The notes under the pieces are model-generated. The model was not told the origin of the DNA. It did no database searches and saw nothing but the letters and a program-made list of their open reading frames with translations. A stretch of DNA of 64,000 bases from Mesodorylaimus sp. YZB2_4 (lineage: Eukaryota > Nematoda > Enoplea > Dorylaimida > Dorylaimidae). Both the position numbers and the translations under genes were made by a program. The DNA lies in the NCBI GenBank assembly GCA_030248295.1, contig JASANH010000104.1:496001-560000 (forward strand), in the 5' to 3' direction. Shown here piece by piece: positions 6,815-41,443 of the stretch. Positions within the stretch are counted from its first letter, which is position 1. Each line of letters begins with the position of its first letter.

Positions 6815-9800
6815 ATGGCGCCGACGAAGAGGAAGACCGTAAGCAGCGGGGAGGTGCCTTATTTCGGATTGACCAAGTTTCTGGTAATCACAGGTTTGGA
6901 CTGACCTTGTCACAATGTCTTGGTAACCTTGACTTGTCTCTCTGCTTCCCTATCTCCGCCGCAGTCGACTAGCCCCAGCTGACGCGGTCACTTTCAGGTT
7001 ATCAAGCTCGCACTTCCTCACGTTTGCCTGTGGTCCTTGTCGATCCTGTACTGCGTCGGCGGTGCCTTGATGTTCATGCACTTGGAGGGCAGGGAAAGTC
7101 TGGCAGCGTCCCGCTTCGTCAATAGCTCCATCAACAGGACGAGCCAAGCCGTCACCTGGCAGCTCTTCAACCTGACCAGACCGTTGGACGGACAGCAGCG
7201 AGTCAACAAGTCCAGATGGAAGGCCATCGGAGACGAGACTATGAGACAATTCGCCACCCAGATCTACGACCTGCACAAGAAGTTGGATCAGTCGAGTTTG
7301 GACGCGGGCGTGGCGGACAAATGGGAGTTCGGCAGAGCCTTCTTTTTCGCTGCTACCACCTTGACTTCCATAGGTACGATGGTGGTCGCGTGCGCTGGCC
7401 GATGGACGCTTCTGTCCATGGTGCAGATCCTTCTCTGTGCAGTAATGTTGCTTCAAAGTCCCAACCGGGTCCCATTCGAAGGTCATTCAGACTGCATCCC
7501 TCTCAATTTAGGTTACGGAAACCAAACGCCAGCCACTCGAGGCGGGAAGGTCTTCTGCATATTCTACGCGCTCTTTGTGAGTACGCCGCAGAATGTTACA
7601 GCTACGGTACGATCTCATGGCCGCCTCTGTTCTAGGGCCTGCCTCTCGTGGTCATCACAATCGCCGACATCGCCAAGTTTCTGTCCCACTTTATCCTCTG
7701 GTGTTTTATCAGATACTTAATGGTCAAGTGGAAGGTCCGTGCCTGGTACCGAACGTGGAGACTGAAGCGGAGGGAGAGGAGAGAGAGTCTTAGATTGCAG
7801 CGTCTGCACGGATTGTCACCAGCCGCTGCTGCTGCCATCGTATCGCCAAAAGGGCACAGTGATGAAGAAGTGGCTGAGTTCTTGTGGGTCAACTTGGTCA
7901 ACGCCGAGTTTGTGGAGGTGAGTTGCATGTGGAGTGCTGAGTACCCACTTGGTAATTTGGTTAACATCGTCTTCTGTTGCATCAGGTAATATTTTCCAGA
8001 TTACCCGATGTAAAAAACTAAACGCCATTGGGCCTCCACCCTTGAATGACGGATGTTTGTTTTTCAGGTCCCAGCATCCCTTATGTTCGCTTTGATCTCG
8101 TCTTATGTGGCACTGGGCGGATTTTACTTTCGATCAGTTGAAAATGATTGGACGTTCTTTGAAGGCTTCTACTTTTCGCTAATCAGTATCCTGGCTATTG
8201 GCTTCGGCGACTACACGCCCAGGAATGAGCGTTTTATCTATGTCTCCCTTCTCTACGTCATCATGGGCATCGTGTTGACCACAACGTGCATCGATATTGT
8301 GGGCGTAGACTACATCAACAAATTGCATTTCTGGGGACGTCAATTGCACAAAGTAGATCCGCTTCAATGGCTGAAAGAAGTGCAAGAGAAACGACTGAGG
8401 AATATGAAACGGAAAGCTATGGCTGCACTGATCAATACTTTGACCGCCTTGCACTACATGAGGCTTGGTATGTGCTTCTGGCAGAACCTCCATAACCTGG
8501 GACACGGGATCTAGGATGCAGGGTCTCTTGTGGAAGGTATTGCCTTCTGTAGCCTAACTTTATGCTGCAATTCAGTGAATACCTCCAGGGATCCTGAAGA
8601 CTATGCAACACATTGCTCTATGTACCTCACGAGCCAGGTCTCTCACCATCAGGAAACTGTTTGACTGCGACTAAACCTAACATGCGTCTTGCCTGTTTCA
8701 GACCCGGCTTTACTCAATAACATGAAAACATTGCTGGCGGAAAATCCTGAGTCAGGAGAGAGTGGCCAAGGCATATCCAATGCCACAATAGCCAGTCCAA
8801 CCTCGCAAAACTCATTAAGTCAGAAAGAATACGACCAGTCGAAATCTCAAGCCATACCTGAATCTATCTCACTGGCCGTTACGACGACCTCGGCGCAGCG
8901 AATGGAACAAAGTCAGAAATTGTCATGGCCAGAAGTCACAGTTCACTACCTTCACCTTTTTAGAAGCTGTTCCAAGTCCACCTCGCAATTTCCGGGCCAT
9001 CAGCATCAGTGTGCACTCGGTCACCTTGAAGTGGGAGCCACCGTTGAGTGGTGTGACCGAGGATATGTACTATAGTGTCTCCTATCGTCTCAGGTAACCC
9101 TGTCTCTTAACCCCACTCGTCCGCATGACTGTTTGCCCTTTTTCCTTCCCTTTGCTTATGCCGCTTCTCCTATCAGGACAGTCTGTGATCATAATCTGAG
9201 ACGGCATGCTGACAGTGATCGTCCAACTTCCATTGTGCACGATCTGATAGCATCGTCCCTCGGCCTCATGACCTATCCAACCGAGTGCATCAACCTGTCC
9301 GACGTGGACGAGGCGGACGAATCTGCAGCCGAGGAGGTGTCGACCTCGCGCAGCACACCTCGATTCAGGTTTGCTATGCTTATTGCTTGTGGTGCGCGCT
9401 TTCCCCTGTTTGGTGCGGGGGGTCATTGCCTGAACTGCTCGAAGAGGCTTCCAGTTCCTGTACGTGTGGGTATCTAGGTATCAATTGCCTGAAGAGCAGT
9501 TTCCTCACTGCATGTCTCATCGTCAGTGTTGATCCTTTGTGGTGGGTGATGCATTTGGAGGAGACTGGTGCGCCTAAGTAACTTACTGGAAAATGATGAT
9601 GGGCACCAAGACGCAGCGATAAAGCTCAATCTATGCACTTGGACTTTCCTTCAGGTTGGCTCCTCGCCGTGTGGGCATGACTGGCATCGAGCGCGTGCCC
9701 AACACGACAACTTCGTTCACTGTGAATGGCCTCAAGTCATTCGCCCTTTACCAGTTCTCCTTGGTTGCTATCAATAAGAATGGAAGGAGCAGATCTGTGC

Positions 9801-10373
9801 ACACCCAGGAATACACAGGTATGAGGATAGATCAGCTGTCTAAGTGTTGACTCCTGCGTAACATTCTAGAACCGAGCACTGTACCATTGAACATTCGTGC
9901 AGCCACGATCTCGGACACGATGGCGAAGATAGTGTGGGACCCACCAGTCAGAAACAAGTTGGGACCCAGGGTAAGACTTATTACTTATCCCTGCTCATTC
10001 AAACTCTGGGTTTCTTCTTCAGCGCTACACATTGCACATAACCTCCGATTCGAGCACACCATTCAGTGAATGGCACAAGGTCGAAACTGCAGCCGACGAA
10101 CACCAACTCGATTTACTAGACCTCCAGCCTATGACGTCATACGTGCTTTGTATTTCGGCCAATCATAATCGGGGCCTGGCAACCTTCTCCCGCTCGTTGC
10201 AATTAGCCACTCTGGCCTCGCCAGCCGACAATACACCAATTGGAATCGGAGATATCAGCAGCGATGCTTCACCTAAGGCCGTGGATTCTACGCGAATATC
10301 TTCAATGGGACGATCGAGCAGTTCGAATTGGTCAACCGACTTCCACACGTCTGAAACTGGTGCCAGGTTCTGA
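6815..10373 (+). CDS. Two-pore-domain (TWK/K2P) potassium channel with two C-terminal fibronectin type III domains
   Basis: A leak potassium channel subunit. Eleven exons join in phase: 6815-6883, 6998-7373, 7512-7576, 7636-7917, 8068-8467, 8702-8911, 8964-9093, 9177-9368, 9655-9818, 9870-9970, 10023-10373, giving about 779 residues. Visible in order: a short N-terminus, TM1, a long extracellular cap with NSS and NLT sequons, pore 1 with filter TTLTSIGYGN, TM2-TM3, pore 2 with ILAIGFGDYTP, TM4, then a tail with two FN3 domains. These start at PSPPRNFRAISISVHSVTLK and at PSTVPLNIRAATISDTMAK, with the usual Trp and Tyr (ALYQFSLVAIN, TSYVLCISAN). K2P tails are cytoplasmic, so the FN3 pair should be intracellular. 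FN3 domains are not part of any K2P architecture I know. Exon 9177-9368 is an insert inside the first FN3 domain. The small intron 8912-8963 is my least certain junction. Confidence 0.87.
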
Positions 10374-11930
10374 ACGAGATAGGTTATTGTAGTTCCCAGT
10401 AGAGCTTGTAGTTCGATAAACATGTTGCGCACATTGTCGGAATCGGCCTGGTGTACTGTACTGTGTTAGGAATTAGAGCTGACGTGAAGGTACGATTCGG
10501 CATAATTATGTCCCGCATGTGGTAGGTGTGTTTGGCCTGAGAAGAAGGTAGTGTATAAGGCTGCCTTTACTGGCCGCCTTATGCACGGAGCAGTATGTGA
10601 TTGCCTTGACTGGCCGCCGCATACAGCGTATCAGTTGCCTTCGTTGGCCGCTCGATACACTCATCCAGGTGAAGCTGAAACCCGTCGGGTTGATGTCCCA
10701 GGTGACCTGCCTACGACTAGGTGACCTGCCTGAAGGGTTTTTGTGTCCATCCGCTCCCCGCGGTATCTTCTCCAATGTAGACCTATTCCGCCTATTACAC
10801 GCATATTGCAGCACAAGCACATCCGGACCTAGTACAATCGTGAACCATAACTGCAATTCGACTGACTGCCCTGACATTGCAGTCGCAATATTAGTGGTCA
10901 CAAACAAGTGCTGACTTCTTATTCTGCATGGCGTCATGTTCACACTGACTGGGAATTCTCGGCAGTCGAAGGAACCTCAGCACGCGGAATAAGGAAGTCT
11001 GCATGAATATCGTGATGACAAGACCAAACCAAAAGACCAGACTGAGAGACCAAATGACAAAATAATATCGGTCGAGGCATATAACAAGTGAATAAGTGAT
11101 TAATGGTCCACGACACTAGTACAAGTGGGAACAAAAGTTGCCTGAGCTGTCCAGAAGAGATAGTTTGCGAATAGATCTACAAAAAACCTCATCGTACGAA
11201 TTGTTACACGCGGCAGTTCGCCAGTCCATAAATCGATGCGAAACCACCGCGTTGTGTGTATAAGTTGGGCTACCATTTAAAAGACGCTCTGATCAGATTC
11301 GCTCTTACTCGCTAAGACGCTCTACCCGTTAGCCAAATAACGCCTCTTGGCTAGAAGCCCCTGACCCGCAGGACAAATCCGACGGGTGATGATGATACTG
11401 TAAGCCCGTTGACTAACCCTATTCACTTCTCCTTTTTGCTGGCAAGTATTCAAGCTTTGCCGCCGTGGGGGCCTGTCACACGGCAGCGTCCACATCCGTA
11501 CCTCCGCATCATGGAAAGTTCCTCGCACAATGGGGTTAAGACTGTACATTCATCTGCCTTCCGACTCGAAACACCTTTTGACTGTACCAGATGAGTTACT
11601 GGGACCTGGCCAAGGTCAGTGAGCGCTGTTGGCTTATAAACCGGCCTCCATAGCCTGGGATTGAAGACAGGACGACCCTAGCCGCCCTTCACAGCATCAC
11701 GCACACAAATACAAACGCCAAACCACTGTAGCCCTGCGGATGATTACCGAAGTAACATCTGTATTATGCGCGCATTGCACTTCCCTAGTTCTCGGGATCT
11801 AGCTAGTGTTTGCAAGGCCTGCTTCTAAAATACAGTATTTATTCCCCACCAAAGTAATATCCTGTACTCAGAGAAATCAGGAGCGTATTAGTAAGCATCC
11901 CAAACACCAACTCATTCCATTCACATTCAT
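10374..11930. other. Intergenic region with short imperfect direct repeats
   Basis: No gene recognised. At 10562, 10602 and 10636 the motif TGCCTTNNNTGGCCGCY recurs three times with spacings of 40 and 34 bp, and GGTGACCTGCCT occurs twice near 10700-10730. The rest looks unique. The 3' end (about 11830-11930) holds the likely polyadenylation region of the minus-strand gene that follows, with AATAAA on the minus strand near 11840. Confidence 0.5.
10562..10655 (+). repeat. Three imperfect copies of a TGGCCGC-containing motif
   Basis: Motif starts at 10562, 10602 and 10636; each reads TGCCTT, three variable bases, then TGGCCGC. Too short and too few copies to call a satellite. Confidence 0.4.
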
Positions 11931-13214
11931 TCATTGCGCCAAATGGCCGTCGAGATCGATCCCAGTCGCTCGTCGAAAGCGATCGCTGCTCGTCCCAGCC
12001 AATGCAGGGTACGCAGTGAAGAGGGCTTGCGAGGCTAGCATACGCAGCGTTTGTACCTGGAACCTAAACCTGGTTCGCATGATCACTGTGTTCGCGTTTG
12101 TGGACAGCACCGCCTCCCGGTCGGTCAGAACGGACGGAGTGCAGTAGTTCAGGTAGGACGAACCGCCGGTCATTCGATGGTCATAGTACTCGCGTACAAC
12201 ACTGTCCGAGGCCACGAAATCTTCCTGACGCCGAAATAGTTCAAACCGACTCGTGCGAGTGTTAAAGACGACGATGCGCTGGGGATTCCGCTGGTAGACG
12301 CCGAATCGGTGATCGGACGATCGGATTTTCAGGCTCAGCGCCCACGAGAATATCAAGTCTTCCTGGTGGAGTACTGTCGACGACTGAGGGTCAGAGATGG
12401 ACAAGTCGAGCACAACGTTCACAAAAAGAGTTCGTGCTCGGTGTGCGACTTCCTCGATCTTGACCGCAGTGCCCAGAAATCGAATCCGCCATCCATCCAC
12501 GACCCACCTGCCTCCGACTCGTCTCATCCGACGTCCCAGGCAGAGAATGGCCACTGGGCGAGTGTATTTTCCGATACGCAGTGACTCGGATAAGTTGAAC
12601 TCTGCCCATTTCTTGTGTCGGATATCGTAGACCAACAGGACGCTGCACGGGCGACGTTCAGGCCGACGCACTCGGCTCAGGTAGACGAAGACTACGCCGC
12701 GGCTTTGGCATGCGAAGAGTGGAAAGCGGATAGTATTGACGGAAGGGAACAAGTCAAACTGGTTGAAATGCATCAGATACGATCGCCGGCCGGTCAGTGT
12801 GGAGACTCGCCATACGGTGACAGTGCGCAAATACGACCCGCGTTGTTTGACGCTGACCACGTTGAGCGCGGACGCGTGGGGATGGAGAGGATCGTCGATC
12901 GGATCCGAATCGCACAACATTAACTTGTGAAGTATTTCGTTCGACGAAGATGTCAATCGGGCCGCAATTTGCCAGTGGGGCCACGGACTGATGTCTTCAG
13001 TTGGTAGTGGCTGTTGACCATCCTGCCAAGCAGTCACGATTTCCGAGTAAATAAAGTCGGTGAGAAAGCGCGTGCCGAAATCGATTAGGCCGATTGCTAG
13101 CGGGATGCCGATGCTGATGAAGGCGGCAGACAACAGTAGGAGGAGCAGAACGAAGACAACTTTCGTCGTCCAGCAGACTGTGAACCCCAGAAGAGCGTAC
13201 AGCAGCACAGACAT
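11931..13214 (-). CDS. Unknown membrane-anchored family protein, intact copy (427 residues)
   Basis: I do not recognise the family. The single-exon frame gives 427 residues. The N-terminus has two hydrophobic stretches (about residues 3-20 and 20-45), consistent with a signal anchor or two membrane passes. The following 370 residues are soluble, rich in Arg and beta-prone segments such as SVLLVYDIRHKKWAEFNL and RIVVFNTRTSRFELF, which superficially resemble propeller blades. A C-terminal helix-like block (QTLRMLASQALFTAYPALAG) precedes the stop. An AATAAA lies roughly 90 bp after the stop. A copy at 61741-63022, in opposite orientation, is almost identical through the coding part and the 3' flank, but the sequence upstream of the ATG diverges. 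A decayed relative lies at 16160-17260. At least three copies in 50 kb show an expanding family. Long antisense open frames over this gene are shadows. Confidence 0.75.
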   Translation of the reverse strand: MSVLLYALLGFTVCWTTKVVFVLLLLLLSAAFISIGIPLAIGLIDFGTRFLTDFIYSEIVTAWQDGQQPLPTEDISPWPHWQIAARLTSSSNEILHKLMLCDSDPIDDPLHPHASALNVVSVKQRGSYLRTVTVWRVSTLTGRRSYLMHFNQFDLFPSVNTIRFPLFACQSRGVVFVYLSRVRRPERRPCSVLLVYDIRHKKWAEFNLSESLRIGKYTRPVAILCLGRRMRRVGGRWVVDGWRIRFLGTAVKIEEVAHRARTLFVNVVLDLSISDPQSSTVLHQEDLIFSWALSLKIRSSDHRFGVYQRNPQRIVVFNTRTSRFELFRRQEDFVASDSVVREYYDHRMTGGSSYLNYCTPSVLTDREAVLSTNANTVIMRTRFRFQVQTLRMLASQALFTAYPALAGTSSDRFRRATGIDLDGHLAQ

Positions 13215-14085
13215 GGCGACTGCTCACCATAACAGCGCTGGGATACTTGCTGGAGACATCTGCTAACTGTGATCGCGTTTATTGTACACTGCACTTGGGA
13301 TCCTTCTAGACACACTGAAAAGTCAACAACGCAGCTTTCTGTTTGCGAAAGTTTAAGGTCATTAGGAGCGCATCGCAGTTTAAAGGTCTGCACTCTGATG
13401 CGAGCTGTACGTAGTTCGTAGAGATGCGTCGTCATCTTCTTTATATTGAACATATTTTATTCAAATCTGCTGGTGCAGATAGTGAAGGTCCATCTGAACT
13501 CCTTCCACTGCGCATTTGTGATTTTGAGCTTCCTGTGAAATACGATGTTGGGCGCAAGTGCAAATCCGAAGCTCCCTTGACAAATATCATGCAATTTGAG
13601 ATCTCGAACTGTCAGACTAGACTGATGGATTGGAAGTCTTATTTTGAGTTGTAGTTTTTGATTATCTTACCCTTTCGAAGACTGCCAGGTAGTATGTTCG
13701 GATAAATGATACATCTTGCTGACGTCGCATGACTGGAGTGATCGGCGCCTATTCTCTGCTGTCTTCACTGGTTCAATGAACCAGTTTTTTTTTGTAGGTG
13801 CAGATCGACGCTTATTCTGCCGCAGACGATCAGGTTCTGTCAGGTACCTACTGTGCATATCTGGCACACGTGATTTCACGAGATCTTCACAATTTACCTG
13901 CTGCAACAGTCTGACATGACACGAGAAGTACAGTATAGTGCGCACAATTACATACTCCGCTGATCCGTTCTGGTATGCACATCCGACAAGGTGCGCAAAA
14001 GAGTTCATATTTTGAGATTCAGATAGCAACAAGCCACAACTAACCCACTGTCCACTACTGCAAACACCGCCACATGCAAAGCTTT
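13215..14085. other. Intergenic region between the unknown family gene and the MYND gene
   Basis: No gene or repeat recognised. It includes the 5' flank of the unknown family gene (3' part of that promoter near 13215-13320). Confidence 0.4.
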
Positions 14086-15027
14086 TCAAATGACGTTAGG
14101 ATGCTGGTCACCAGTCAAGACAGGACCACAGATAACAGTATGTAAGGCCCGCAGGTCTTCGATGGCTGTCCTCGGGTCCCCGTACCGATCCAATTCCAGA
14201 CCCTTGCCCTCAGCGATATCACCCACTTTAAATCTATAAACCGCTTCGTTCCGGGTGGCCATGAAGTCTAACTTTTTGAAATCTGGTGGCAATAGTTTGG
14301 CTCCTAAAAGAGGAATAGTACACATTCAGAAAGCACACGTCTCGTGCTGCAAACACAGTCTCGGATCTGATATTGAGAGCACTTAGGCGTGCGCTGGAGG
14401 GTGAAACTCTATCAACCCAACCACAGCTGACGGTCCATTCCTGGCCTTACCTTTGGCAGCGTGAAGAAACCTCAGGAACTTTGAGGGAACATCCTCGTGC
14501 TTCGGCAGAGCGCCACAAATCTGCTGTTCATCCAAACAACGTAATCGAAAAGCGTCTACCAAGTAAGCTGTCAGTTCGTCATCGGGTAAGTGTAGGAACC
14601 ACGACTCCACCTTCTGGCGATACTTCGGCTGGAAATGCGTGGGATTCTTCAACTTGCACGGTTTCTTATGGCGGGACCAGTCCAACTGCTGGCACTCCTT
14701 ACTGCAGTAGGCAGCCGCCCGACAATTTCCACACAAGCACAAGAGGCATTCGGCGTTAGCGCAATACGAACACTGATAATCAGTCAGTCCGGACAACTTG
14801 TACAGACTGCGGCACGCTCTACTCATCATTTTGGCATCGCTTAGTCCACTTCGGGAACTGGTCCCGCCCTCGCTACCACCACTGCTCGTACTCATCTCCC
14901 CCAATGAACGATACATGAATGATACGCTGGCCACGAACCCTGCCTCTGCAGGTCCCGAACTGGAAATGGAGGACTGAATTAGTCGAACTGGCGTGGCAGA
15001 CAGCCACCAGCTGCGTCCATTGGCCAC
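14086..15027 (-). CDS. MYND-type zinc finger protein
   Basis: Two exons, 15027-14451 and 14303-14086, join in phase 1 to give 264 residues. A MYND finger is clear around residues 85-123: CSYCANAEC, LCGNCRAAAYCSKEC, WSRHKKPC, holding the zinc-binding Cys/His set. MYND fingers bind proline-rich peptides and often recruit co-repressors. The N-terminal 80 residues are Ser/Gly rich and low in complexity. The C-terminal part has a helical block (WFLHLPDDELTAYLVDAFRL) and a conserved-looking second exon (DFKKLDFMATRNEAVYRF), without a SET domain. I cannot name an orthologue. The start is the first ATG of the frame; a downstream Met (MSTSSGG) is also possible. Confidence 0.8.
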
Positions 15028-16159
15028 TTAGGACTCGGAGGCAGGGCCCGTCGTTGCAACTAGATTGCCTTTTTTCTCTCGAAACTCGAACGGCTAGTTT
15101 ATTGAAGGTTTTGCCTTACTCATACCACCCGCATTCTGTTTAGGCGCTAGCGAGTTTCCTTGATCCTATAAGACTCTGTTTGCCGCGAGAATCGATGCCA
15201 CAATGACGCCAGCCACATCAGCGCTGCTTGCTGAGGCAATGCTGGAATGAGGGAGTGAATCAAATCTTGGTAGTCACTCTCTACAATGTTAACGCACCTC
15301 TAGCTGATGGGACAAAGAGGAAACACAGAGTGATGAATTGTGCAAGAAACGACTTCGATGTCGATTGGCAGTACGAGGTCAGGATTTTATGATAGCTGAC
15401 GACTTTGAGTTTGCCGAGAAATGAAAAAGAATTAAGTGATACATGAACAGAGTTGACCAGCTACTAACCGTACAGAAATCTCTTGAGACTTCGCAGCGGC
15501 AGGAGTAGACAAACTTCGGCTCTGACGAAATCTTTAGAGTTTTGGTCTTTACTTGCGGGACATTTCATCCTCGTAAGTGGATGAAAATAGGAGATCTGCC
15601 CGACAAATGCGAGGTAGACACAGCCCTGTCAAGCGAGAGCTCGGATATCACATCTATAGAAACCTCAAACAATTTGGCTAGTACGGATACATGATCCCCG
15701 TACGCAGCTTATGACTTTCTTCATCAAAAAGATTTGTTTGACGGTTTGAACTCAATTATAGGGAAAATTCTTCTAGAAATTGCACCGAGGGTACTGCAAA
15801 AACTCATCATGTTTAATCTGCAGTATGTGGCCATAGAACTATTCAACGGAAACAAAACTACGAGCATGCATTGGGGTGCGGGGTATGTGCAGTACTGTAT
15901 GAATATGTAGGCAAAAACTCTAGCGACTGAATTGCAGCGTACTGTACGGGAAGGGGTCTTCATACTTTGCATGTAGCCCTTGTACATATCATGTAGCACG
16001 ATCGCAAATATGGTCTTGACTCTGTCCAGCTTCATCACCGTGAATGTCGCTGCTTTGCTTGTCTTTGCTGATGCTCGCTCTTCAGGGTTCATAGCTGATG
16101 GATGACGGAAGTCTCCCTCCTCTGCGCTCCTGCCTGGTTTTGCCGGTTTCTGGTAAAGT
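15028..16159. other. Intergenic region
   Basis: No gene or repeat recognised. A minus-strand open frame at 15724-16092 has no recognisable domain and odd composition, so I do not call it. Confidence 0.4.
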
Positions 16160-17260
16160 CTGAGGGGTCTGAGAATGCGCTTTGTTACCGACTTTATTTC
16201 CTCAGAAATCGTGGCAGGACAGTCAACAGTCCGTACCAGCGGAAGCGATTACTCCGTGCACTGGGAATCTTCTGCAAGTCTACAAGCGATTTAGATCCTA
16301 TCGACGATCTTATCCATCCACACGCGTCCGTGGTCAGTATCAAACAACGTGGACGCATTTGCGCACTGTCATCATATTGCGAGTCCCCACGCTTATTGAC
16401 CGGTGATCGTTTTTGGTGCAAATGCATCATTCCTGGGTAGTTGGGGAATCAAAGCTCTCCCTGGCAGGAAGTGATCAGGCCAGCCAGTTTGACGTTTTAG
16501 CCGTTTCCTATTCACCTCAATAGATGTCTCAGAGACTTCTCATAACTGTCTCCCTCCGCCTGTGTGCGCTGGTTACATTGGCGTCACAAACCTACTGTAA
16601 GGGCTGCTTCATGTATGAGCCCCTGCGGCCGCGGTGGTGCAGCGGCAGTCCAGCATTCCGTATTGCTCAGTAGCAAGTGGCTGGGCTCGTCCTGGGTCCA
16701 ATCCTTCGGTGATGGAGGTCGGTTTGCGAACCATGAACCCTCGCTGAGGTGCTCCGAGTGGACAGTCTGGGCTGTCGAATACCGACAGGGTTACAGACCA
16801 CCCAACATCGTCTGAGGAAGTCGATGTCCAGTCCAGGATGGTGTCCCTAGTAGACGTTTTAGCCGCCGACGGACACTGCTGTGTGCGCTGGTCTCTTGCT
16901 TACAAGGTTTGACTTCTGGCCGGCTATCGGCAAAAACGGCTCCCTCTAAACCAAATATACTGGCCTGATGCATCCATGCTGGGGAAGAGTTTTGATCTCA
17001 CGATCAGGAATGTTGGTTAAACATCTCGACATCAGCCAATTCGACTTGTTTCCGTCATCAATACTATCTGGAATTTCGAACTTGAAGAAGCGAATGATTG
17101 GGGCCCGCCCACCAGTTGCCATGATGGCAGAGCCTGCTGCTCTCTTGTTTACAGCCCCTGAAAAACATAAATTCAGAGGCATCGTACATTATTTTTCGGA
17201 CAATGTCCTGAGAATTGGTCTTTTCACGAAGCCCACGCACAAGGGCCTTAATCCCCAAAA
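16160..17260 (+). pseudogene. Decayed copy of the unknown membrane-anchored family, interrupted by about 0.5 kb
   Basis: Bases about 16185-16430 resemble the intact family genes: DPIDD-IHPHAS, VSVKQRG and LTGR-type blocks are readable but in shifting frames. Similarity resumes at about 17020 with QFDLFPS and continues with a weak match around 17160-17250 (LRIG and TKPT blocks). Between about 16440 and 17010 the sequence is unrelated and contains a tRNA-like stretch. Several frameshifts and missing segments mean it cannot encode the full protein. It is more diverged than the two near-identical copies, so it is an older duplicate. Confidence 0.65.
16627..16712 (+). repeat. tRNA-like stretch, possible SINE head, inside the decayed family copy
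   Basis: TGGTGCAGCGG at 16635-16645 resembles a Pol III A box, and GGGTCCAATCC at about 16694-16704 resembles a B box, some 55 bp apart. It lies in the block that interrupts the decayed family copy. I cannot fold a clean cloverleaf, and only one copy is seen in this window. Confidence 0.35.
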
Positions 17261-17663
17261 AGCCAATGCGCTTCGAGCAGTTTCGTCCTCTCTGCTTTGA
17301 GCAAGGATAATAAAGGCAAAAATCAAATAGCGACGTCCAAGAATAACAGCTTAAGAGGCACTCGGAGGACAAGCGGGACGCGAGGATAAGACGCGGCTCG
17401 AAGACATTTCGTTTTCGCCGCAGTCCCGTGTCGACCATGAAAAAGGACTAGTATGGAAAAAGCAACCGCAGCCTAATTTCCCGGCCCGAAGTTAGGCGCA
17501 TCGTCTAGCTCTTTTCGTAGAGACGAAGCAGAAAGCAGCGAGGCGTGAGTAAAACGGTCATTGAAGTTACTCACTGAAGTTTCGAACACTTTTTCTTGTC
17601 TCAGATTGAGCGAGGAGGTCACTTTCCGTTTCCGCACCAGCAACGACTTCCGATTTGTCGATT
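17261..17663. promoter_or_regulatory. Upstream region of the second K2P-FN3 channel
   Basis: No coding signal. It probably holds the promoter and 5' untranslated region of the channel that starts at 17664. Confidence 0.35.
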
Positions 17664-20600
17664 ATGAACACTTCTCTGGACGATAGCAGTCTGCGTCGAT
17701 TGATGATGACCAGCCAAACGACCGAGCACGAGTCGGGGGCCAGCGACTCACACCATTTGGCCACGACAGTCACGACCGAGACGAGGCTCGAGGACGAGGA
17801 AGACGGAGAAGAGGACACCACCGCGTCCACCAGACTGATCATGGATGCTGAATCGCAAGAGGATAAGAAAGTGTGCACTAAGGAGGCCTCGCACGCTGTG
17901 GCTGTGGCAGCTGTTGCTGCAGTACTCAGTCATGGCTTAGTGCCGATGTCCGACTCACATCAGCCACCAACACCACCACCCAAAGATGAGATCGAAGAAG
18001 AGAAGCAGCCGCTGACCGCAGATGGACAAGACGCGTTGGTGAAAAAACCAGAACTGACTTGGAAAGGGGTAAGTCAGCGTTATTTCGAGCTCACAGGGTC
18101 TAGCCGTCTGGTATATTTTATACGTTCTCACTTTCAAGCACTTTTCGACGCTGGTGTATCTTTTCGAAATGTGCCTTGCTATTACAGATTTCCCTAAAAC
18201 AATAAGCCTAGACAAGATTCCACTTTGAAGAGCTCACTTATTCATTTCGTCCCTGTGACCTTTTCAGATCCTCCGCACCGCAGCCCCACATTTGGGTTTG
18301 CTTCTCCTCTCCCTCATCTATACATTCATTGGTGCTGCAGTGTTCATCCGTCTGGAAGAGCCCTACGCCCGAGACCTGCAGAAGGATAGGGCACTTAAGA
18401 TCAAGGAGAACCGCGATGAGTTATTGAACAATTTGTACCAATTGAGTCGAGATGGTCGTCCGATCGAGGAGGGAGAAAAGGAGTTCGAGCGATTCGCTGT
18501 CACTCTGCACTCGTTGCATCAAGCAGGAAAATGGAAAGGCGAAAATGACGAAGCCAGGTCGACCAAACGATGGATGGACGAATGGAACTTTGGTGCTGCC
18601 GTATTTTTTGTCTTTACTACCCTGACTACCATTGGTAAGTTTGACTCCTCAATGGAGTCGGATTTAGCCTCATGTTTTCTTAATACTTGTATGGTGACAA
18701 AGCTCGCGCATGTTGACCCTCGTTCATCTGAAGTCCAGACTGCACACTTCATTTCAGGCTACGGCAACGTAGTCCCAGCCACTCAAGCTGGTCGCATCTT
18801 CTGCATGTGCTACGGCCTCATTGGTGTACCCCTGCTTCTGGTCACCACCGCCGACATAGCCAAATTTATGTCGTCTGGTCTGACTCGCCTGTACATCCAT
18901 TACCTAAAGTGGAAGGCGCAAGCTGCGGACAAATTCAATCGACTTATTCTTCGGCGAAAGTCGCACGAGTTGCACGTGGACGACACTGAGAGTATGGCCG
19001 AGTATGTGTGGAACAATGTGGACTCGGTCCACTACGTCAAGATACACGCTGGCATCATTCTGGTCATCATATTGGCTTATACGAGCATGGGTGGGTGGCT
19101 GTTCAGCCGGTACGAGCAGTGGACATTCTTCGAAGCCTTCTACTTCTCTTTCATCAGCATACTAAAGGTGGGATTTGGTGATTTATTGCCAGCCAATCGC
19201 AACTATTCCTGGCTTTCCATCCTCTACATCTTCTTCGGCCTGACAGTGGCCACCATGTGCGTCGATATTGCAGGCTCGCAGTACCTGGAAAGAATCCATC
19301 AGCTGGGTAAGCCTCTTCTCAACAGTGTTCACAGCACTGAACGGGTTCCATTTAAGGAAGACAGATGAAACATGCGGACTACCTGAGCGTCATTCAAAGA
19401 GCCAAGTACCGTCGAAAGCGAAGAGAGGCGGTAAGAGACACAGGGAGACCATCCTACATGAGGCGCTCTTGTACCCCTTCCGTGGCCTCCTGGTACCTTT
19501 ACTCCCACAAGGGGTAAGAATGCCTAACGGTAATAGAAAGGCCCCTGAATCCTTAGTTTAGTTTATAAAGTACGCGTTCTTAATTGGGATATATACCCAT
19601 AGCAGTAGCTGCCTTGACCCATTAATATGCCCGCCTGATGTGTGAGATACGGTCAGTGAAGCCCCTCCTACAGCAATTGGCCAAGCTTTCTGTTGCTTGA
19701 TGAAGTTCTTGCAATACCTGAGTTTGCTCGACCCTTACAGATGAAATCGCTGATGACCGTGCTGACGTTGGTCAATAGAATGCGTTTTCCCCCAGGTACA
19801 ATTGATGCTCAATTCTGATAAAACAGATGCTAAAGATGGTTTTCGTTGCAGGAACTCTATTGAGGAAAGAAATGGAGGAACTGAAACGTAAGTCCATCCC
19901 TTATATGGTCCCGCGACCTTGTCTGATGTTTCCTCGCGCATTTAGTGCCACCACCTCCCCCGACCGAAGTCCGAGTCACCAACATCACCCCGTACTCGAT
20001 CAAGCTTATTTGGACTCGCCCCAATGCACCCACCAAAGCCAAATATGTTCTTAAATACAAAATGAAGTATGTGCAGAGTCATATCTTGAGCGAAGGAGGT
20101 GTATATCTTCTGTCTTGCCATTAGACACAGCAAGAGTGAAAGCACTGTGAACATCTCCAACATCTGCGAGGGTGAGATCGAGATCAAGAACCTGAAGTCG
20201 TTTTCCATTTACGAAATTAGCTTGTCTTGTGTGAATCGAGTGGGACGCAGCAATTCGGTCAAACTGATACAGATTACGGGTAAGTAGGTACATGCACTGC
20301 ACATAAGACCCCGGGTAGCCACTGCATCCCATACCTGTAACGCGTGTCAATGGCACCAGTAAAACGCAGGCGCTTTAGTTCTTGCATCAATAGCTCTCAT
20401 CGTTAGCCGCGCATGGCTTCAGTGGGGGAAAAGCCTATCGCCTTTTTCTGCGACACCATGTACATGCATTTTTCTGGTACCCAGAACCCGAAACATCACC
20501 CCAAGACTTGGCGGTAGAAGTGCTCGGCCCCACGTCGGTTTCCTTGACTTGGAAACCGCCATATAAGAAACAGAAGGACGTGAAAGTAAGCCCCTTTTCG

Positions 20601-21277
20601 GCACATTCCCGAAAGGCACTAACAGCGTGTGTACGTTCAGAAATACGCAATCTACTACAGCAGCAATCCAGAACAACCGTTCGAGCGATGGACGAAAATA
20701 ATAGTGGATGCCAGCGAACACAAGTTACGACTGGATGACTTGTCCGAGGGGGCTGCCCAATACGCCTTCTGCATCAGCAGTGTCTACGATCGGGGTCATT
20801 CGCCCATCTCACGCACCGTCTACGCGGCTAGTGTTTCGTCGAGTCGTAAAACGTCCGTCGCCACTGCGGCGTCTGGATACGCCAGTAGCGCCAGTGTTCG
20901 AGGTGTGTATAGAAGACGTAGTGGGTACGCAGGGCAGCCTACTGTAGAGCTGTAGAGCACGCCATCTAGCCTGTAGCACACGCAGCATGCGCAACGGCAT
21001 GCGTGTACAGTATAGGAACCACTTTACACTTTCAGCTGTAACAGCAAGTGTGCGGCGTGGATATCGTCGCTTGTCGAGAAGTGTGCAATCTGTAAGTAAG
21101 CCAGGCATGCGCGGCACCGACTGCACCATGTCCCATGAGTCAGACCGTCACCACCACACGTGTGCACACTGTACACCACCGACTGCTAATTACGTTCACG
21201 CTTTCCTTTTGTTTCAGATGAAAATGCAAACAGTAGTTTTGCAGCCGCAGCAGTTCGAAAACTCAGTTCAACTTTGA
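17664..21277 (+). CDS. Second two-pore-domain (TWK/K2P) potassium channel with two C-terminal fibronectin type III domains
   Basis: A paralogue of the channel at 6815-10373. Twelve exons join in phase: 17664-18068, 18268-18634, 18758-19306, 19357-19430, 19741-19795, 19852-19887, 19946-20066, 20125-20279, 20485-20585, 20641-20902, 21036-21091, 21218-21277 (about 746 residues). It has a 135-residue acidic, Ser/Thr-rich cytoplasmic N-terminus, TM1, cap, pore 1 (TTLTTIGYGNVVP), TM2-TM3, pore 2 (ILKVGFGDLLP), TM4, a basic linker (RAKYRRKRREA), then two FN3 domains (LPPPPTEVRVTNITPYSIKL and SPQDLAVEVLGPTSVSLTWK). Intron positions and phases match the first channel across both the pore and FN3 regions, so the fusion came before the duplication. 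It lacks the extra FN3 exon. The last two exons are less certain. An uninterrupted frame across 18292-19368 simply reads through the intron 18635-18757. Confidence 0.88.
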
Positions 21278-21568: not shown

Positions 21569-22492
21569 TCACAGCCTGCTCACAGTTTGGATCTGTTCCA
21601 TGCGTCGTGCCAGGTACGTATTGAGTAGTCGTTCCCACTCGCCCATCAGCTGATCGAAAGGCAATGACATCTCCTCGGCTTCGAATAAGTACATGGGAAA
21701 TGACGGGCTCCTCTGGTACACTAGCATTGCTGCCCACATGCACACCACAGCCGTGATTCCAAACGTGACCTGCACTTCGCCGTTGACACGATCCTCGAAG
21801 AAATGCGCCAAGAATTCGCGCCCACTTTGCTCAGCTCGGAATTTGCGCACATAATGACCATGATCGGACAAGAAACGTTTCAAGGGCAACTTGAAGCATT
21901 TGGCCACTTCCTCGTTGCAGACAGGTTCGAAGTCCGGTTCAGTTATGTATCCGATCACCGGGTAGATCAGAAAATCATGCCGAGTCAGCAATGGAATCAA
22001 GGCCGCACCGACCGTGACGTACTCGTATGGCAAGCCCACCTCTTCGTACGCTTCTCGCAAAGCCGTCTCCACGGGTCCGTGATCAGTCCGATCCCTAACT
22101 CCGCCCGGGAATGCCACTTCGCCTTTATGAGATCGGACTAACTGACTCCGTTGAGTCAGCAGTACTTCCAGTTGTCCATTCGATCGATCACGAAGCAACG
22201 GCACCAAAACGGCCGCTTCTCGAGTAATGAACGGATACTTCTGAGCCAACGGACTTAGGTGATTCGGTCCGTAGAAATGTTCCGGAGCGTGGAATTTCTT
22301 CAAACGCCGAAGCATAGCTCGCACGGCGGCCATATCTCCGGTGAGATGTGAGTCGTCCTCTTGCCCAACCGATCCGACTTGGATTGAGTTGCGTTGTGAC
22401 GGTTGGAAATCTTCAACTACACTATACGCCTCCACGTCTTCAGTTCCTTCTCGCCTCTCCCCATTCCGCCCATCTCTCGATTCCGATGTCAT
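21569..22492 (-). CDS. Nudix hydrolase of the CoA diphosphatase type (NUDT7/NUDT8-like)
   Basis: Intronless, 307 residues. The Nudix box is complete: GGVRDRTDHG followed by ETALREAYEEVGL, giving the GX5EX7REUXEEXGU pattern with its metal-binding Glu residues. Just before it lies KGEVAFPGG, part of the UPF0035/CoA-type signature found in NUDT7, NUDT8 and yeast PCD1, which cleave CoA and acyl-CoAs to phosphopantetheine and 3',5'-ADP. The protein ends in SRL, a canonical PTS1 peroxisomal signal. This favours a peroxisomal NUDT7-type role over the mitochondrial NUDT8 type. The first 60 residues are charged and not conserved; an internal Met at about residue 54 could be an alternative start. Confidence 0.88.
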   Translation of the reverse strand: MTSESRDGRNGERREGTEDVEAYSVVEDFQPSQRNSIQVGSVGQEDDSHLTGDMAAVRAMLRRLKKFHAPEHFYGPNHLSPLAQKYPFITREAAVLVPLLRDRSNGQLEVLLTQRSQLVRSHKGEVAFPGGVRDRTDHGPVETALREAYEEVGLPYEYVTVGAALIPLLTRHDFLIYPVIGYITEPDFEPVCNEEVAKCFKLPLKRFLSDHGHYVRKFRAEQSGREFLAHFFEDRVNGEVQVTFGITAVVCMWAAMLVYQRSPSFPMYLFEAEEMSLPFDQLMGEWERLLNTYLARRMEQIQTVSRL

Positions 22493-22979
22493 TTTAGTCG
22501 CCCGCCACTCGAACTGTACCCGAACCGAATATCGACCAACCAGAACAAGACGACCTTTGCGTCACCCGCACGCCCTTGCAACTGTATCGGACAAGTCGGG
22601 CGCCTAAGAGAATAGTCCTCAAAGTCACTCCGCAAAAACACAACCACTTCGAGTATCAGGATGAGACCTAATCCAGTCAATTATCATATCAGACACGCCA
22701 TAAAACTTTTACTTTCTCTTTCACAAACAGTGCCCAAGGTCAATGCCACAAAAAACCTACATGCATAAGAAAGGGGAACGTGGGTGAGGGAGAGTACGCA
22801 ACGAGACGCAGGCATAATCGGGACACCGAACTAGATCACATTCATCGCATCCACTCTTGCACTACAGTCTAACGCCGGGGAAACTTTACCCTCGGGCAGG
22901 GAACTTCTCAAAACGGAGGATGTCGTCCTACTCAACAGGTTCAAATTTCAAAGTGCACAAACGTGGCACGCCAGCACAT
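22493..22979. other. Intergenic region between the Nudix gene and HACD3
   Basis: Both genes are on the minus strand, so this holds the Nudix promoter and the HACD3 3' end. Nothing else recognised. Confidence 0.4.
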
Positions 22980-34455: not shown

Positions 34456-37400
34456 CTACAAAAATTCTTTCAACATTCTCGCGGTCATCTTCTTTGACAG
34501 ATGTCGCTGCTCGTTCTCACTAGCACCATTCGAAACGAGTGAAAAGAATTGAGCCCAATCATAAAATGCCTCCGCTAATGTCTGCACACTGGCCAAACTG
34601 GCCGCCTTCGACCCCCGACACATTTCGTATTGACCGGGTGGTAGCTGAGAATCGCACGTGATCGGGTGATACACGTGGACCAGGTCCGGTTCGGGCGCTC
34701 TTACAATACTCAAATTACTCTTCTTAACGAACTTATCGAACAATTCCACGTCCTCCATTCCCCACCCACGAATGTTCAAATCGAATCCACCAACAGCATC
34801 GAAATCACTGCGATACAATCCAACAAGGCCGTAGCCAAAATGACGAAAGTATCCATTCTGAGAATCATAATCGAATCGTACGAAATCACCACCACTCGCG
34901 ATTGCATTTCTCCATTTGGATAGTGCATACTGACTAAAGACGACTGGAAAATAAATTCTACGTCCTCGAATCGTATTCAATCGAACTCGACGAATAAAGT
35001 CTCTCGTAAACGCCACATCCACGTCCGTAAAGAACATTAGGGCATCGGGGGGACATTGAGAAGCACCATACGATAAAGCCTTGCCACGGCTAAAGTTCCC
35101 AGTCATGTCGAATAAGCGAATATCGTGAGACCGTCCGTAATTGTCTTGCAATCGTCGAATCGATTCTCGAATCACTCGATCGTCCGTAAAGTTATTCGAT
35201 GCAAACAGGACGATGTACAGTTTGATAAGCTCGCCACTCTTCAAGCACGTCTCTTCCAACAAATCGGTAAAACGTTGAAATGTCGATGAACGACCGCACA
35301 AAGGCAGAATTATATGAACCAGCTGCTTGTCACTCGGCCTCACCGAACCCGCGTTATCTTCCAGTTGTCTCATGGCGTCGTCCTCAATCAGTTGCAAACG
35401 TCCAAAACTTTGTTGCAAATAAGCGTGACGACGTACTGGTATGGTCACCCGACGCCCTTTAAATTTCTTATAAAGTAATAAAAGATCGAAAACGTAGTCG
35501 ACGCCGTGCAAAGGATCCACGCGTCGATAGCCGTAAAGAACGTCTTGATACTCCAATATACGACCCCGTTGACGAGCGTATTTATTCACTATGTCCATGA
35601 CCTAAAATGGACAAAATACAGGAAATGCTTTCAATCAGGCGGAAGAGGGTACAAAAGAATGAAAAGCGGACCAAACCATCCTGCTGACGATAAACCAAGT
35701 ACCCGCAACTAAACCCCTTACTGGGATATCCCAAACACAAATCTGCACATACTTGCCGAATCACATTGGTCGTCGCATAGCGCCAATAAGATTCAATATT
35801 GTGACGAGGGCAATTCGGGGCGCCCAGACAAAAGGCGATAGTTGGTGACAGGAATTCCCAGCTGAGCAAATCTTCGTGTTTCGAAGGAATAAATTTGGTC
35901 AACGACGGAGTTTGTGCATAGTCCGAAACTGAAAGAAAGAAGGAAAATGATCATTTTCAAAAAGTACACACTTCGTAACAAATCCAAGTTGTCAAGAGAC
36001 TCGTTTTTCGATCCTTCTTGATTTTTATCTGCATTATCCTATTTTTGCTTACTGGTTAGACTAGGCCGACTCAGACATCAGACAGGATGTCAACCCTTCG
36101 ATTCATCCTCAAGGGGGCCCCCATAAGTAATATCGCAATGCGAAGCGGAATAATAACATGAACCATTTCCCAAGCTTCATACAACTAAAAATTCGAATTT
36201 CCCGCAGTCAGCCGCTTGTGACAGCTCTATAGGGATAAAAAATTTCTTCTAAAAACCATAACCGTGTCTGGCCGTGTCTCTTCTACAAGCTCACGCACTC
36301 CAACTTCGAAGTGCGGTACGTTTCATCATATGTATGTCAAACTGTCATAGACGAACAGTGGAAAATTCAAATTTTGCGTTGTACAAGACCTGTGAAATAG
36401 TTTTTGTACAGAACGTCAGGTTATGAAACCAGTCCCACACCTCATATAAAATATGACACCCATACTCTGCCAGCTACGTGTGAAACTAAACCCAACCAAA
36501 TATCACTCCGTAAGTATATAAAGTGACCCACACCAGTAAACAGAAGTATGCACTGTAGCAGTAGCAAACAGCTTACCTTTACTGAGTTCTTCCTCCACAG
36601 ATGGAATATTGATCGCTTCAAGCTCTTGTATGCTCATCAGCACGTCTCGATTCAACTGCATTGACCGGAACCTGAAATTCCGACACGGCTGTAAAGATGG
36701 ACCGCACCATGCACTCATAATCAGTCAGGGACCTCCCGAGCATCGACGTCTGGACTCTCAATCCGCTACAAGTATGGCTTCTGATCAACCAGGAGATCTC
36801 CCACCACAAAACAGATACGGGGTCAGACAGGATTATGTCAGCAGGCAACACTCTCTATCCATATTCTACTGTAACGTGCACTTTACAATGTGGGTAGAGA
36901 ATGCAAAGTGGTAAAGGGGGTTAAGGGAAGGTAGTGGTGTAAGGGGATAGAGGGGTAAGGCGCATGTGCACCTTACAATATCTTAGTCATCCGATTGTGT
37001 CTCCTCGTTCTGGCTTCACATACCAGTTCTGCTGATGAAGACTGTATAATACGGTCAAAAAGCTTCAGCTTTCTCCCCTGATTGGCTTTGAGTAAACAGT
37101 ATCAAGAATATTACAGAATTTGATAGCCAGCTACGGGAGCTGTTTTGAGTTCTATCTCCACCCACATAGATCGATTAGGAAAACCTTGCTTGCCTGGCTG
37201 TGCGTGAATCCCCCATACTCTCGAGACGGAGCTGTCCGAGCTGAACGACGGAAGCTAAGCGAGTAGACAGTCCAGGGGAAATGCCACTGCCTAAGCACAC
37301 TGGTGTCTGGTACAGGAAGCCGCATGGGGTGCTTCCCACCACTGCAGGACGAGAGGCTACAAACAGAACGGACTTGAGCCCCCAAAAATTCAAGATATGC

Positions 37401-39042
37401 ATGAAACAGACTCTTTGGTCCTAGTTACTATGTGTGACAGAACCAGTCCCAAACACCACTTACCTTAAATCCGATAACTTCAAGCCCCGCATAAAACTAT
37501 GCAGCCTTCGCATGGTCGTCTGCTGTTTAACTGGATGTAAAGTAAAGGAATGATGAACTTCAGGTACGTTCAAATCGCCCGTATACGCCGACAGACCACT
37601 TTGATTATTGTAGAACACGGTTTGCATCTGCAACAAGCACACATTAGAATTAGAACTAGACTGGCACTCCTAGCTGTCATTGCACACCCCACACTACAGC
37701 GAATGTACGCCGTCAAGTAAGCCTTATTTCGAGCACAGTTGAAATACGGTCTGTTCAAACGGCCTGCATTGATCTCGGGGGCGAGTATCAGTCAACGTCG
37801 AACACACTCATCGACGCCACCTTCTTCAACCCCCGCTGCTCCTACCCTTCCTTGCCATGGATCATTAATATTGCATGATCCATCGACCAGACAACCATGC
37901 GCATTTTGTGATGAGCTGGCGCATGGTTGTCTAGACATAAAAGCATCTGCTGCTGATCGCGAATCCGGCCCGAACATCCCAGGTGCCGAGAAAACCCATC
38001 TCGCATTCACATTGCTCTTCCCTCCTTCCCATTCGACCCATCGCAGACTCGGAATAGAAAACAGTACGGTACCTCGTACGACCACGTGCACGTAATTCCA
38101 GCAAACTGTTTCACGCATCGTCCCACTTCCACGTCCTCGTGCGTTGTCAGCATGGAGCTTAGACACTGGTCGATATGCGGCCCAATAAGCCTGAGTGTCT
38201 CGCGACTGAGTATGATTCCAGTGCCGCCTAAACACACAATTTAATAGACCCATCATCAGTTTCAAAAATGTAAACACAAACAACTCACCCATGCAATAAT
38301 TTTCGTCATTTCCCAAACTCAACTGGCCGTACTCCTCGGGCGTACCCAATCCGGCTTGACCAATAAACAGAGGTTGGCTACTATTGAGCGATCGTAAAAA
38401 CACTTCCAGTTTATCCAGCCGAACGTAGACATCGTCGTCGGCTCTCATAAACCATTCGTATTGATTTAAAAGATGATCGTAGAAATATTTTAGCATACTA
38501 AACGACTTCTTCTGGGGCGGGTATGAATCATCCACGTTACGTAATCGTATCAAAGGCATCGACACGCCGGCCAGTCGACTCTCCGTGCTCGAACTGACGA
38601 AAAAACCCAGACTTCCATTTGCTAATAAACTTTGAGCCCAGGTGGCATAGATCTCGAATGCTCGACTATCCACGTACTTCTGTGCCGTCATAACTCCTAC
38701 GAAGAGTAGGTTTCTTGGAGGACGGGAGAAACTGGCACCGTCCACACCATCTTGTCCCGCAATAACATCTGGTGGATGTTGATCTGTCGACGAGACTGAC
38801 TCCCCATCGGCGACTCCAGTCCTGGCCGATGCTGCACACCCGAGCGGGCCATTGTGAATGGGCGAAGTTTGGAGAGCGTGCAAGCACATGGTCACCGATA
38901 GGCCCAATGCAGCACCAGTGATCGTAAGGATGACCGTACGAACCAGCTGGCGATTGGCTCGGCGCATACTACGTTGTAGATGGCAGACGAGTAAACACTG
39001 TAGAAGTGATAGCAGTGGGAAATGGTCGACACGAAATCGCAT
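34456..39042 (-). CDS. CHSY1: Chondroitin sulfate synthase 1
   Basis: A Golgi type II membrane enzyme that polymerises chondroitin by alternately adding GlcA and GalNAc. Six exons join in phase: 39042-38289, 38227-38073, 37627-37464, 36671-36577, 35928-35753, 35601-34456 (about 829 residues; human CHSY1 is 802). A single membrane anchor lies near residues 35-60. The N-terminal fringe-like domain shows LLFVGVMTAQKYVDSRA, DDSYPPQKKSF, the metal motif RADDDVY, and THEDVEVGRCV. The C-terminal GalNAc-transferase domain shows VPVRRHAYLQQ-like PVRRHAYLQQSFG, the second metal motif FFTDVDVAF, and GGFDLNIRGWGMEDVELF. Both catalytic DxD sites are intact. An internal Met (MRRANRQ) closer to the anchor is an alternative start. 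Confidence 0.94.
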
Positions 39043-41443
39043 AGCATGTTAGGCAGCGACGAAACTAGTCGACGCGGTCGTGTCCCAACAATGTTCGCCC
39101 TCCTCGTCAATGAGTAAATCCAATTCAAAGAATGAAAATGTCAGCCAAATCGAATCCGGTCGAAAAACGCAATAAAACTGAAGACCTAAATAGCTACGCC
39201 TCGGTGAAAGAAAAGAGCTTGAGCAAATTGCCGACCTCCACGAATCGAAGACGACCCAATTGATGGAGCTCGTTGGCGCGTCCGTTCGACCCTTCTAGTC
39301 TAACGCATAATTGTGCACACAGGCACCTTGGCCCGAGTCGGTAATGGCAGTCCAACAGAGGTCAAATACGGGTCCACATAGCGTTGGCTCGTTCATATAT
39401 TCACTACTTTTTCCTTACTCGGCTCAACCGAATCGGACCAATGACGAGACGAGTAAAAAGCCTTTTTCTACTTGGCTTTGTGGCGATTCCCGTTTCGGCC
39501 GCTACGGATGAATAAAACGATTAGGAAGGGCGCCGAGTCGGCTCGCCGGACAAGTTGAGGGTGTCGGCGGTGCTGAAAGTGTAATCAACTATATTCCATA
39601 TCTGAATACCAAAGTTCACCGCTCAGAATAAAGACTCAAACATGCTACTGCATTCAAGTGCAAGAGGTTGAGCGGGGCCCACCAGCAAGAATACGTCATT
39701 ACTACGATAGTTCTTCCGTTTCAAAAAAGTTTCTTTCGGGTAGCGATGGATTCCCCTCGACATACCACAAACTAGGAGCCCACACAGGCAAACCTCCAGC
39801 GATACAAATGGGCGGAAATTTGATACGACTAGCACAAACAAAATTGCAACACCTTTGATAACACGGCCCGAATCCTCGCAGTCTTCAACACCAGATAGCA
39901 CAGCTGTTGTCCAAACTGAATAGGGGCCGTTGAGGGATCACTTCTCCCACTAGGTCAACCTACGATACAAAGTGCAGACATAGCTTCTCCAAAAGCAATG
40001 CATCTTGCGACCAGCTGATGGATCGTTTATAAGCCTAAGAAAAGCCGATAAGTTATAGGACTTAGACAAGCTGTAAAAACCATTCATCAATCGAAATTGG
40101 TCCATTAGCTCGGCGAACAACGTCCAAGTCGGTACCAAAGTGCCGAGTGGGCTAATCTAAGCCGGCATAAGTAAACAAATTCGTGTACTCATAGGCTCTC
40201 AACCCAGAAAATACGACGTCCAAACCCGAGGACGAACCCGGTATTACCCACAGGCCTACACCCAGGGCACTGGCGACATGAGAACTAATACGAGCATTCA
40301 AATCGCAAGAACGCTAATGTGTCCCTGGGCTTCCGTTGGCTCAAAAAGTTTAAAAATTTCCCGATTTAAATACCTACAACCTTTCTAGAAAGTCCGATGC
40401 CATCTGGTTCAAAGGGAGGAATAAAACACGAGAAATGACTAGTTCTAATGCTTTAGCAATAAAAAACCAAGCTCAGCCCAGCCAGTTGGAGTAAAAACAA
40501 ACGCGAATACCAGTCCGAAGAAACCCATCGTCACGAAAACGCAATAAGTTTGTCACCGACAAGCAAACCCCGACTCGATCACGCAATAAGAGCACCTTTG
40601 CCTGCCCTCTTCATTTTTCTTTCTCTAGAGACAGCCAGGCTAGCTGTGAAAGAGGATCGCCGCGCGGGTCCAGTTTCGGCGATAAATACGGTACCGAAAG
40701 CCTCTTCTCTCAAAGCGTGACGAATGAAAAAGCAGCCTCGAACAACTCGCCCGACAAATGATGGATTCGAACAATGGACACTTACACCTATACACACTAC
40801 TCAATGCCACCACAAGAAACGCTCTAGTTCCAGTGGTAGGGGCCTATTCCACCAAAAACCTTCCCATTCCTTCGCCTAGTACACCGCGAAAAATGGCCCT
40901 TTCAAAAAAGTTTCATTTTTCGGAGAAGTATGGTATGTATACTATAAACAACGGAAGTCGGCAGCGCGTTGGGGCAGCGAGTTTTGTAGAGACAGTGGTA
41001 CAGCAGCCGTGGATATACTAGATATAACAGGATATGCGACCGGGCAGAAATGAACGTATATCCATTACAGTGGGCAGGAAGCAAAAATTACCTGGCGCTT
41101 AGCAGCAGACAACTAGAGTGGTGCGCGTCAGTTTTGTCATAAGTAGCGTGTCTGTGCGCAACTATCCACTTGACTCCAAATCCATCGACGTTGTGATTTA
41201 TTCACTGTAAATGATCTTGTGTGGTTGATCGATCGATCTTAATAAAATAAGCCTTGATATTTCCGTATCGATAAATTTATAAGTTTTAAAGAACGTAAGC
41301 TAAGGTACAGTAGGCTACGTAAGGCTTCCTATGCATTTCGCTTTCAATATTTTGTGATCGCTGGCAGTTTTTCAAGTAGGCTAATGCAGCGTTTTGGAGC
41401 CATGTCGGAGCTCGTCACCAAAATATACATTTAGGGTGGACTG
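39043..41443. other. Head-to-head intergenic region between CHSY1 and the zinc-finger gene
   Basis: 2.4 kb with no recognised gene. It should contain both promoters. An open frame at 40758-41021 has no recognisable domain. Sequence near 41220-41290 is AT-rich and may be part of the zinc-finger promoter. Confidence 0.4.

Follow-up and report, generated by a model that had tools for sequence, protein, structure and literature searches.

Two neighbouring K2P-type channel genes of a dorylaimid nematode are predicted to carry a pair of fibronectin type III domains on the tail

Two-pore-domain potassium channels (K2P or KCNK channels; nematode TWK) have cytoplasmic C-termini, and their regulation proceeds largely via the C-terminal tail. 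To our knowledge these tails usually contain no known folded domain. Tandem fibronectin type III (FN3) domains occur in several other proteins. In LAR-type receptor tyrosine phosphatases they are extracellular, and in titin and twitchin, muscle giants with Ig and kinase domains, they are intracellular. Integrin beta-4 is a membrane protein whose cytoplasmic tail carries two FN3 domains in tandem, and this pair anchors the receptor at a scaffold or cytoskeletal site. In open-access texts we found no description of a K2P or other potassium channel with a fibronectin or fn3 tail, in agreement with an earlier note on this DNA, whose author was aware of none. The word 'fibronectin' is absent from the main text of PMC9049526. 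The architecture may be present, unremarked, in databases.

The window analysed is a stretch of 64,000 nucleotides of contig JASANH010000104.1 from Mesodorylaimus sp. YZB2_4. It contains two neighbouring, related K2P genes, here called A and B (Table 1). Their exons were joined by hand at GT/AG sites in the window DNA and the joins are predicted; the splice sites are mostly good. As the earlier note had claimed, each gene is predicted to run from the channel into two FN3 domains in a single frame with phase-consistent introns, and both spliced products are open. In Pfam searches each product matched Ion_trans_2 in two stretches above the gathering score (A, 1.1e-31; B, 3.6e-34). The predicted tails matched fn3 twice per gene (A, 4.4e-19; B, 8e-21), with whole-protein scores of 68.9 bits for A, scanned as the 715-aa form that omits exon 9177-9368, and 74.5 bits for B, against a gathering score of 25. 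Chance FN3-like sequence in the tails is ruled out by these matches. Pfam and hydropathy gave four transmembrane segments (TM1 to TM4) and two Ion_trans_2 pore domains (P1 and P2) per chain in both genes, with no further hydrophobic segment past TM4. At the level of sequence the FN3 tails of these K2P genes are thus confirmed, and we regard a fused K2P and FN3-FN3 architecture in both genes as very probable. In the N-terminal region of B, residues 75-97 (17886-17954) form an Ala/Val-rich hydrophobic stretch before TM1 (hydropathy 1.82).

Table 1. Predicted features of the two channel genes (positions in the window)
Feature	Position	Strand	Basis and remarks
Gene A, K2P channel with predicted cytoplasmic FN3 pair	6815..10373	+	spliced translation open throughout, 779 aa; Pfam
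Gene A exons	6815-6883, 6998-7373, 7512-7576, 7636-7917, 8068-8467, 8702-8911, 8964-9093, 9177-9368 (possible cassette), 9655-9818, 9870-9970, 10023-10373	+	
Gene A channel core, TM1-P1-TM2-TM3-P2-TM4	6998..8467	+	splicing, Pfam, hydropathy
Gene A FN3-1	8964..9818	+	split at the phase 2 position that holds the extra exon; best Pfam fn3 stretch, residues 472-557 of the 715-aa form
Gene A extra exon, candidate cassette	9177..9368	+	192 nt (64 codons) with two phase 2 boundaries, separating the FN3-1 halves
Gene A FN3-2	9870..10190 (end approximate)	+	second Pfam fn3 stretch; pairs with gene B FN3-2, 6.6e-20
Gene B, K2P channel with predicted cytoplasmic FN3 pair	17664..20955	+	spliced translation open, 725 aa; Pfam
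Gene B exons	17664-18068, 18268-18634, 18758-19306, 19357-19430, 19741-19795, 19852-19887, 19946-20066, 20125-20279, 20485-20585, 20641-20955	+	
Gene B alternative 3' end	exons 21036-21091 and 21218-21277	+	also open
Gene B channel core	18268..19306	+	splicing, Pfam; aligned to KCNK3/TASK-1
Gene B FN3-1	19946..20279	+	phase 1 introns flanking, phase 2 intron within; Pfam
Gene B FN3-2	20485..20830 (end approximate)	+	phase 1 intron ahead, phase 0 intron within; Pfam

The product of gene A has 779 residues when all exons are used and 715 without exon 9177-9368. This exon sits where B has the single intron of its FN3-1; when it is skipped the frame is kept and FN3-1 is uninterrupted, and it could serve as an alternative cassette. 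Its 64 residues gave no Pfam match of their own. The donor before FN3-1 in gene A is not obvious. We propose a weak site at 8912 (GTCAGA), picked partly for phase, which yields a 52-nt intron of the right phase; a 29-nt intron at 8935-8963 was ruled out by its wrong phase. The 3' end of gene B is ambiguous. The end at 21277 given in the earlier note is open through the two alternative 3' exons, and a stop at 20953-20955, which yields 725 residues, is the other choice; the two ends differ beyond the FN3 pair, and many other junction choices for B are open.

Like nematode TWK/K2P channels, A and B have four transmembrane segments, two pore domains and a long TM1-P1 loop. When the channel region of B was compared with solved structures, KCNK proteins were the top matches (KCNK4, 1.6e-23; KCNK3, 4.1e-22). 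A and B also share with the TWK/K2P channels the TM2 glycine hinge (GLP, GVP), which is followed by a hydrophobic residue at TM2.6 (Val in A, Leu in B). This position is defined in PMC6377628, where Val and Leu are both among the residues given for other K2Ps, and we rejected TM2.6 as a natural hyperactivating residue in A or B. The two genes differ from nematode TWK/K2P channels in the FN3 pair on the tail and in the loss of the P2 filter threonine.

The P1 filter of B (TTIGYGN) fits the TxGYG pattern; in A (TSIGYGN) the filter Thr is replaced by Ser. In P2 the K2P filter threonine (TxGFG) has no match in either gene. Gene A has SILAIGFGD, with Ala at this position (codon 8194-8196), and gene B has SILKVGFGD, with Lys (codon 19165-19167); when B is aligned to KCNK3/TASK-1, this residue falls on the second threonine of TLTTIGFGD. 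Among the 23 paralog loci that could be read here (of 36 sampled), 19 have Thr, two Ser, two Leu and none Lys or Ala, so the threonine is not strictly defining in this genome. The two with Leu are the K2P-like paralogs L044 and L046 (C265, C375).

That both FN3-tailed channels lack the second-pore filter threonine is new here, and it leaves doubt whether the pore is a standard K+-selective one, most of all in gene B. The proteins might be made and yet not be K+ leak channels: they could conduct no current, be less selective or serve heterodimers as regulatory subunits, and the FN3 pair would then have a structural role. The absence of Ala and Lys from the 23 readable paralog loci speaks for this, as do the Thr found at the same position in the nearest paralog, C6, and in the aligned KCNK3. 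Atypical filters occur among the K2Ps of Caenorhabditis elegans, where UNC-58, with an atypical filter residue, passes sodium. On the other hand, the P1 filters keep a hydroxyl residue (Ser in A, Thr in B), the pore domains of both genes still score well in Pfam, the Leu of two paralogs makes the position variable within the genome, and Ala at the filter threonine site is tolerated by some K+ channels. We consider it rather unlikely, though well worth weighing, that A and B are something other than K+ leak channels. The changed P2 filter offers a test of nematode K2P drift from K+ selectivity.

The FN3 tails of A and B would be on the cytoplasmic side, since K2P C-termini lie there and no hydrophobic segment follows TM4; the earlier placement of the FN3 pair inside the cell agrees with both points. 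Compared with solved structures, the tail of B was closest to receptor phosphatase delta (2.3e-20), the best stretch covering residues 3-152 of 194. The tail of A was closest to titin (2.6e-20, summed over titin's repeats) and also matched receptor phosphatase F (3.2e-18, residues 4-157 of 203). For both tails the matches to LAR-type phosphatase and titin FN3 tandems span the boundary between the domains. LAR-type tandems are thus among the best matches of both tails, but they lie outside the cell and A and B have no phosphatase domain. Titin and twitchin share the intracellular location of their FN3 domains, but not the build of an Ig- and kinase-bearing muscle giant. Integrin beta-4 also has two tandem FN3 domains on a cytoplasmic tail; it is a receptor and not a channel, and its match to the tail of B (6e-6) is of a likeness generic for FN3.

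By analogy with integrin beta-4, whose FN3 pair anchors that receptor, the pair of A and B would most likely act as an intracellular protein-binding arm that fixes the channel to a scaffold or to a site on the cytoskeleton, and it might also relay force or cues of position to it. Tethering to a scaffold is the most likely role, held with much lower confidence than the fusion itself, and force gating through the FN3 pair is possible. For the whole account, K2P/TWK subunits whose tail ends in an FN3 pair that acts as a binding or tethering arm, we estimate a probability of about one half. A K2P with a built-in adhesion-type tandem would give a direct handle on leak-channel positioning or on coupling to structure. 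In a speculative extension that we think improbable, a K2P subclass would have acquired the cytoplasmic FN3 pair and given up the P2 filter threonine together, so that a K+ leak channel became a subunit tethered to a scaffold, less selective for K+ and possibly responsive to force.

The comparison of A with B reveals selection on the tail only in part. Identity is 28-38% by region, and 60-70% of residues differ. With synonymous sites near saturation, pN/pS was 0.443/0.697 in the channel core and 0.515/0.695 in FN3-2, so pN is below pS in both; in FN3-1, where the values depend on the alignment, it was 0.571/0.539 and pN is not below pS. The lack of a synonymous excess in FN3-1 is what a passive pair might leave, one kept since the fusion for bulk or stability without binding anything specific. 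Such a passive role is improbable, as both domains were kept in both copies despite the 60-70% residue difference and FN3-2 has pN below pS.

Several features bear on whether channel and FN3 pair are parts of one gene. Seven intron positions correspond between A and B (phases 0, 1, 1, 1, 2, 1 and 0), as judged from phases and alignment, and two of them are offset by one or two residues. The first precedes TM1 (phase 0), the second falls in the P1 filter (1) and the third in the linker (1), where the two genes differ by two residues. The fourth precedes FN3-1 (1; offset by one residue when the proposed A donor is used), the fifth splits FN3-1 (2), the sixth separates the FN3 domains (1) and the seventh splits FN3-2 (0). 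The earlier note had introns at the same places and phases throughout. This holds for the FN3 part, save the extra exon of A, and elsewhere only partly: introns 7577 and 7918 occur in the channel core of A only, and introns 19307 and 19431 follow TM4 in B only. The best partner for the FN3-1 of A is that of B (9.6e-10), and the two FN3-2 domains likewise pair with each other (Table 1). The linker from TM4 to FN3, about 70 residues in B and 125 in A, is partly conserved (GRQ..AMxxL..LT..MR). The open frame that holds FN3-1 (B 19927-20124, A 8819-9097) has no ATG ahead of the domain, and its first one lies within it; since the arrangement is also repeated in both genes, a standalone FN3 product is unlikely. 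That the FN3 exons are separate genes just 3' of two ordinary K2P genes, for example in operons, which nematodes use, and were wrongly joined here could draw on joins predicted from DNA, the weak last donor before FN3-1 in A and a poly-A-like TATAAA at 19564 in B, but it is highly improbable, as the same layout occurs twice with corresponding introns, the small linker exons of B maintain the frame into a linker partly conserved with A, and even a trans-spliced gene would start inside FN3-1, barring unseen upstream exons.

The 145-Mb genome (1067 contigs) was searched for relatives of the fused genes. Its K2P family is large, with at least 150 Ion_trans_2 matches (150 of 258 candidates scored), a count of exons that possibly includes other K+ channels; the scored matches merged into 108 clusters, two of which are genes A and B. 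The closest match outside the window to TM3-TM4 of both genes was the paralog C6 (C6:946426-; 108.7 bits for A, 102.3 for B). Its frame reaches a stop about 135-140 codons past TM4, and no FN3 exon was found in the approximately 1.5 kb beyond that stop. In a TM1-TM4 tree of ten sequences, some of them partial rows and with long-branch warnings from the program, A and B were sisters (98/98), and groupings of A with C6 (p 0.023) and of B with C6 (p 0.0048) were rejected. A tree of the P2 half with 23 sequences supported A plus B at 82/82.

An FN3 profile was built from 35 domains of the same genome. With E up to 10 it detected seven of the eight FN3-bearing exons of the window, missing 9870-9970, and found no FN3 exon at the 36 sampled Ion_trans_2 loci, 33 of which match the core of A or B. 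As two pairs overlap, the 36 loci represent 34 different places, compared with 106 clusters outside the window. Outside the window, none of the FN3 regions listed, whether from searches with the two tails or from a genome fn3 scan (150 of 232 candidates scored), lay in the 10 kb that follow an Ion_trans_2 match on the same strand. The fn3 scan missed the window's own intron-split FN3 domains and so cannot exclude other such tails.

Since the nearest paralog has no FN3 and A and B are sisters, a single FN3 gain before the A/B duplication is the simplest reading. The FN3 pair would have been joined to a K2P tail once, in a single ancestor belonging to a nematode K2P subclade, and duplication of the fused gene would have given A and B, with the nearest paralog retaining a plain tail. 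The same domain order and the corresponding introns also favour the earlier claim that the fusion predates the duplication. Other matches in genome searches with the two tails were generic FN3 regions only. The best outside the window was C87 for the B tail (6e-8), a region where Ig, FN3 and Kunitz frames occur, and C36 for the A tail (1.9e-4), and similarity to the long FN3 genes of this genome is weak. These matches do not single out any one donor gene (LAR-like, DSCAM-like or titin-like) for the pair. By eye the linker after TM4 seemed homologous to relatives' tails, but this found no support beyond 14 columns (probability 5.6). Searches of viral and prokaryote contig collections confirmed no relatives of the gene B product.

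A nematode host is supported by 133 matches in the genome to the nematode cuticle-collagen N-terminal domain, a family we take to be a nematode marker; 14 prokaryote control genomes gave none. The canonical SL1 22-mer is absent from the genome at 0 mismatches. Elsewhere in the window, a 1.5-kb sequence that contains a long open frame and has no Pfam match occurs twice, inverted and 94% identical (11698-13218 and 61737-63271), with a 76% fragment at 16286-16420. Further frames resemble a NUDIX protein (21572-22561, minus strand), Chondroitin N-acetylgalactosaminyltransferase (34459-35601, minus), Fringe (37795-39048, minus) and a multi-C2H2 zinc-finger protein (43945-46248, plus), and two adjoining bestrophin-like frames (Pfam, 1.2e-51 and 5.3e-52) occupy 56920-59068.
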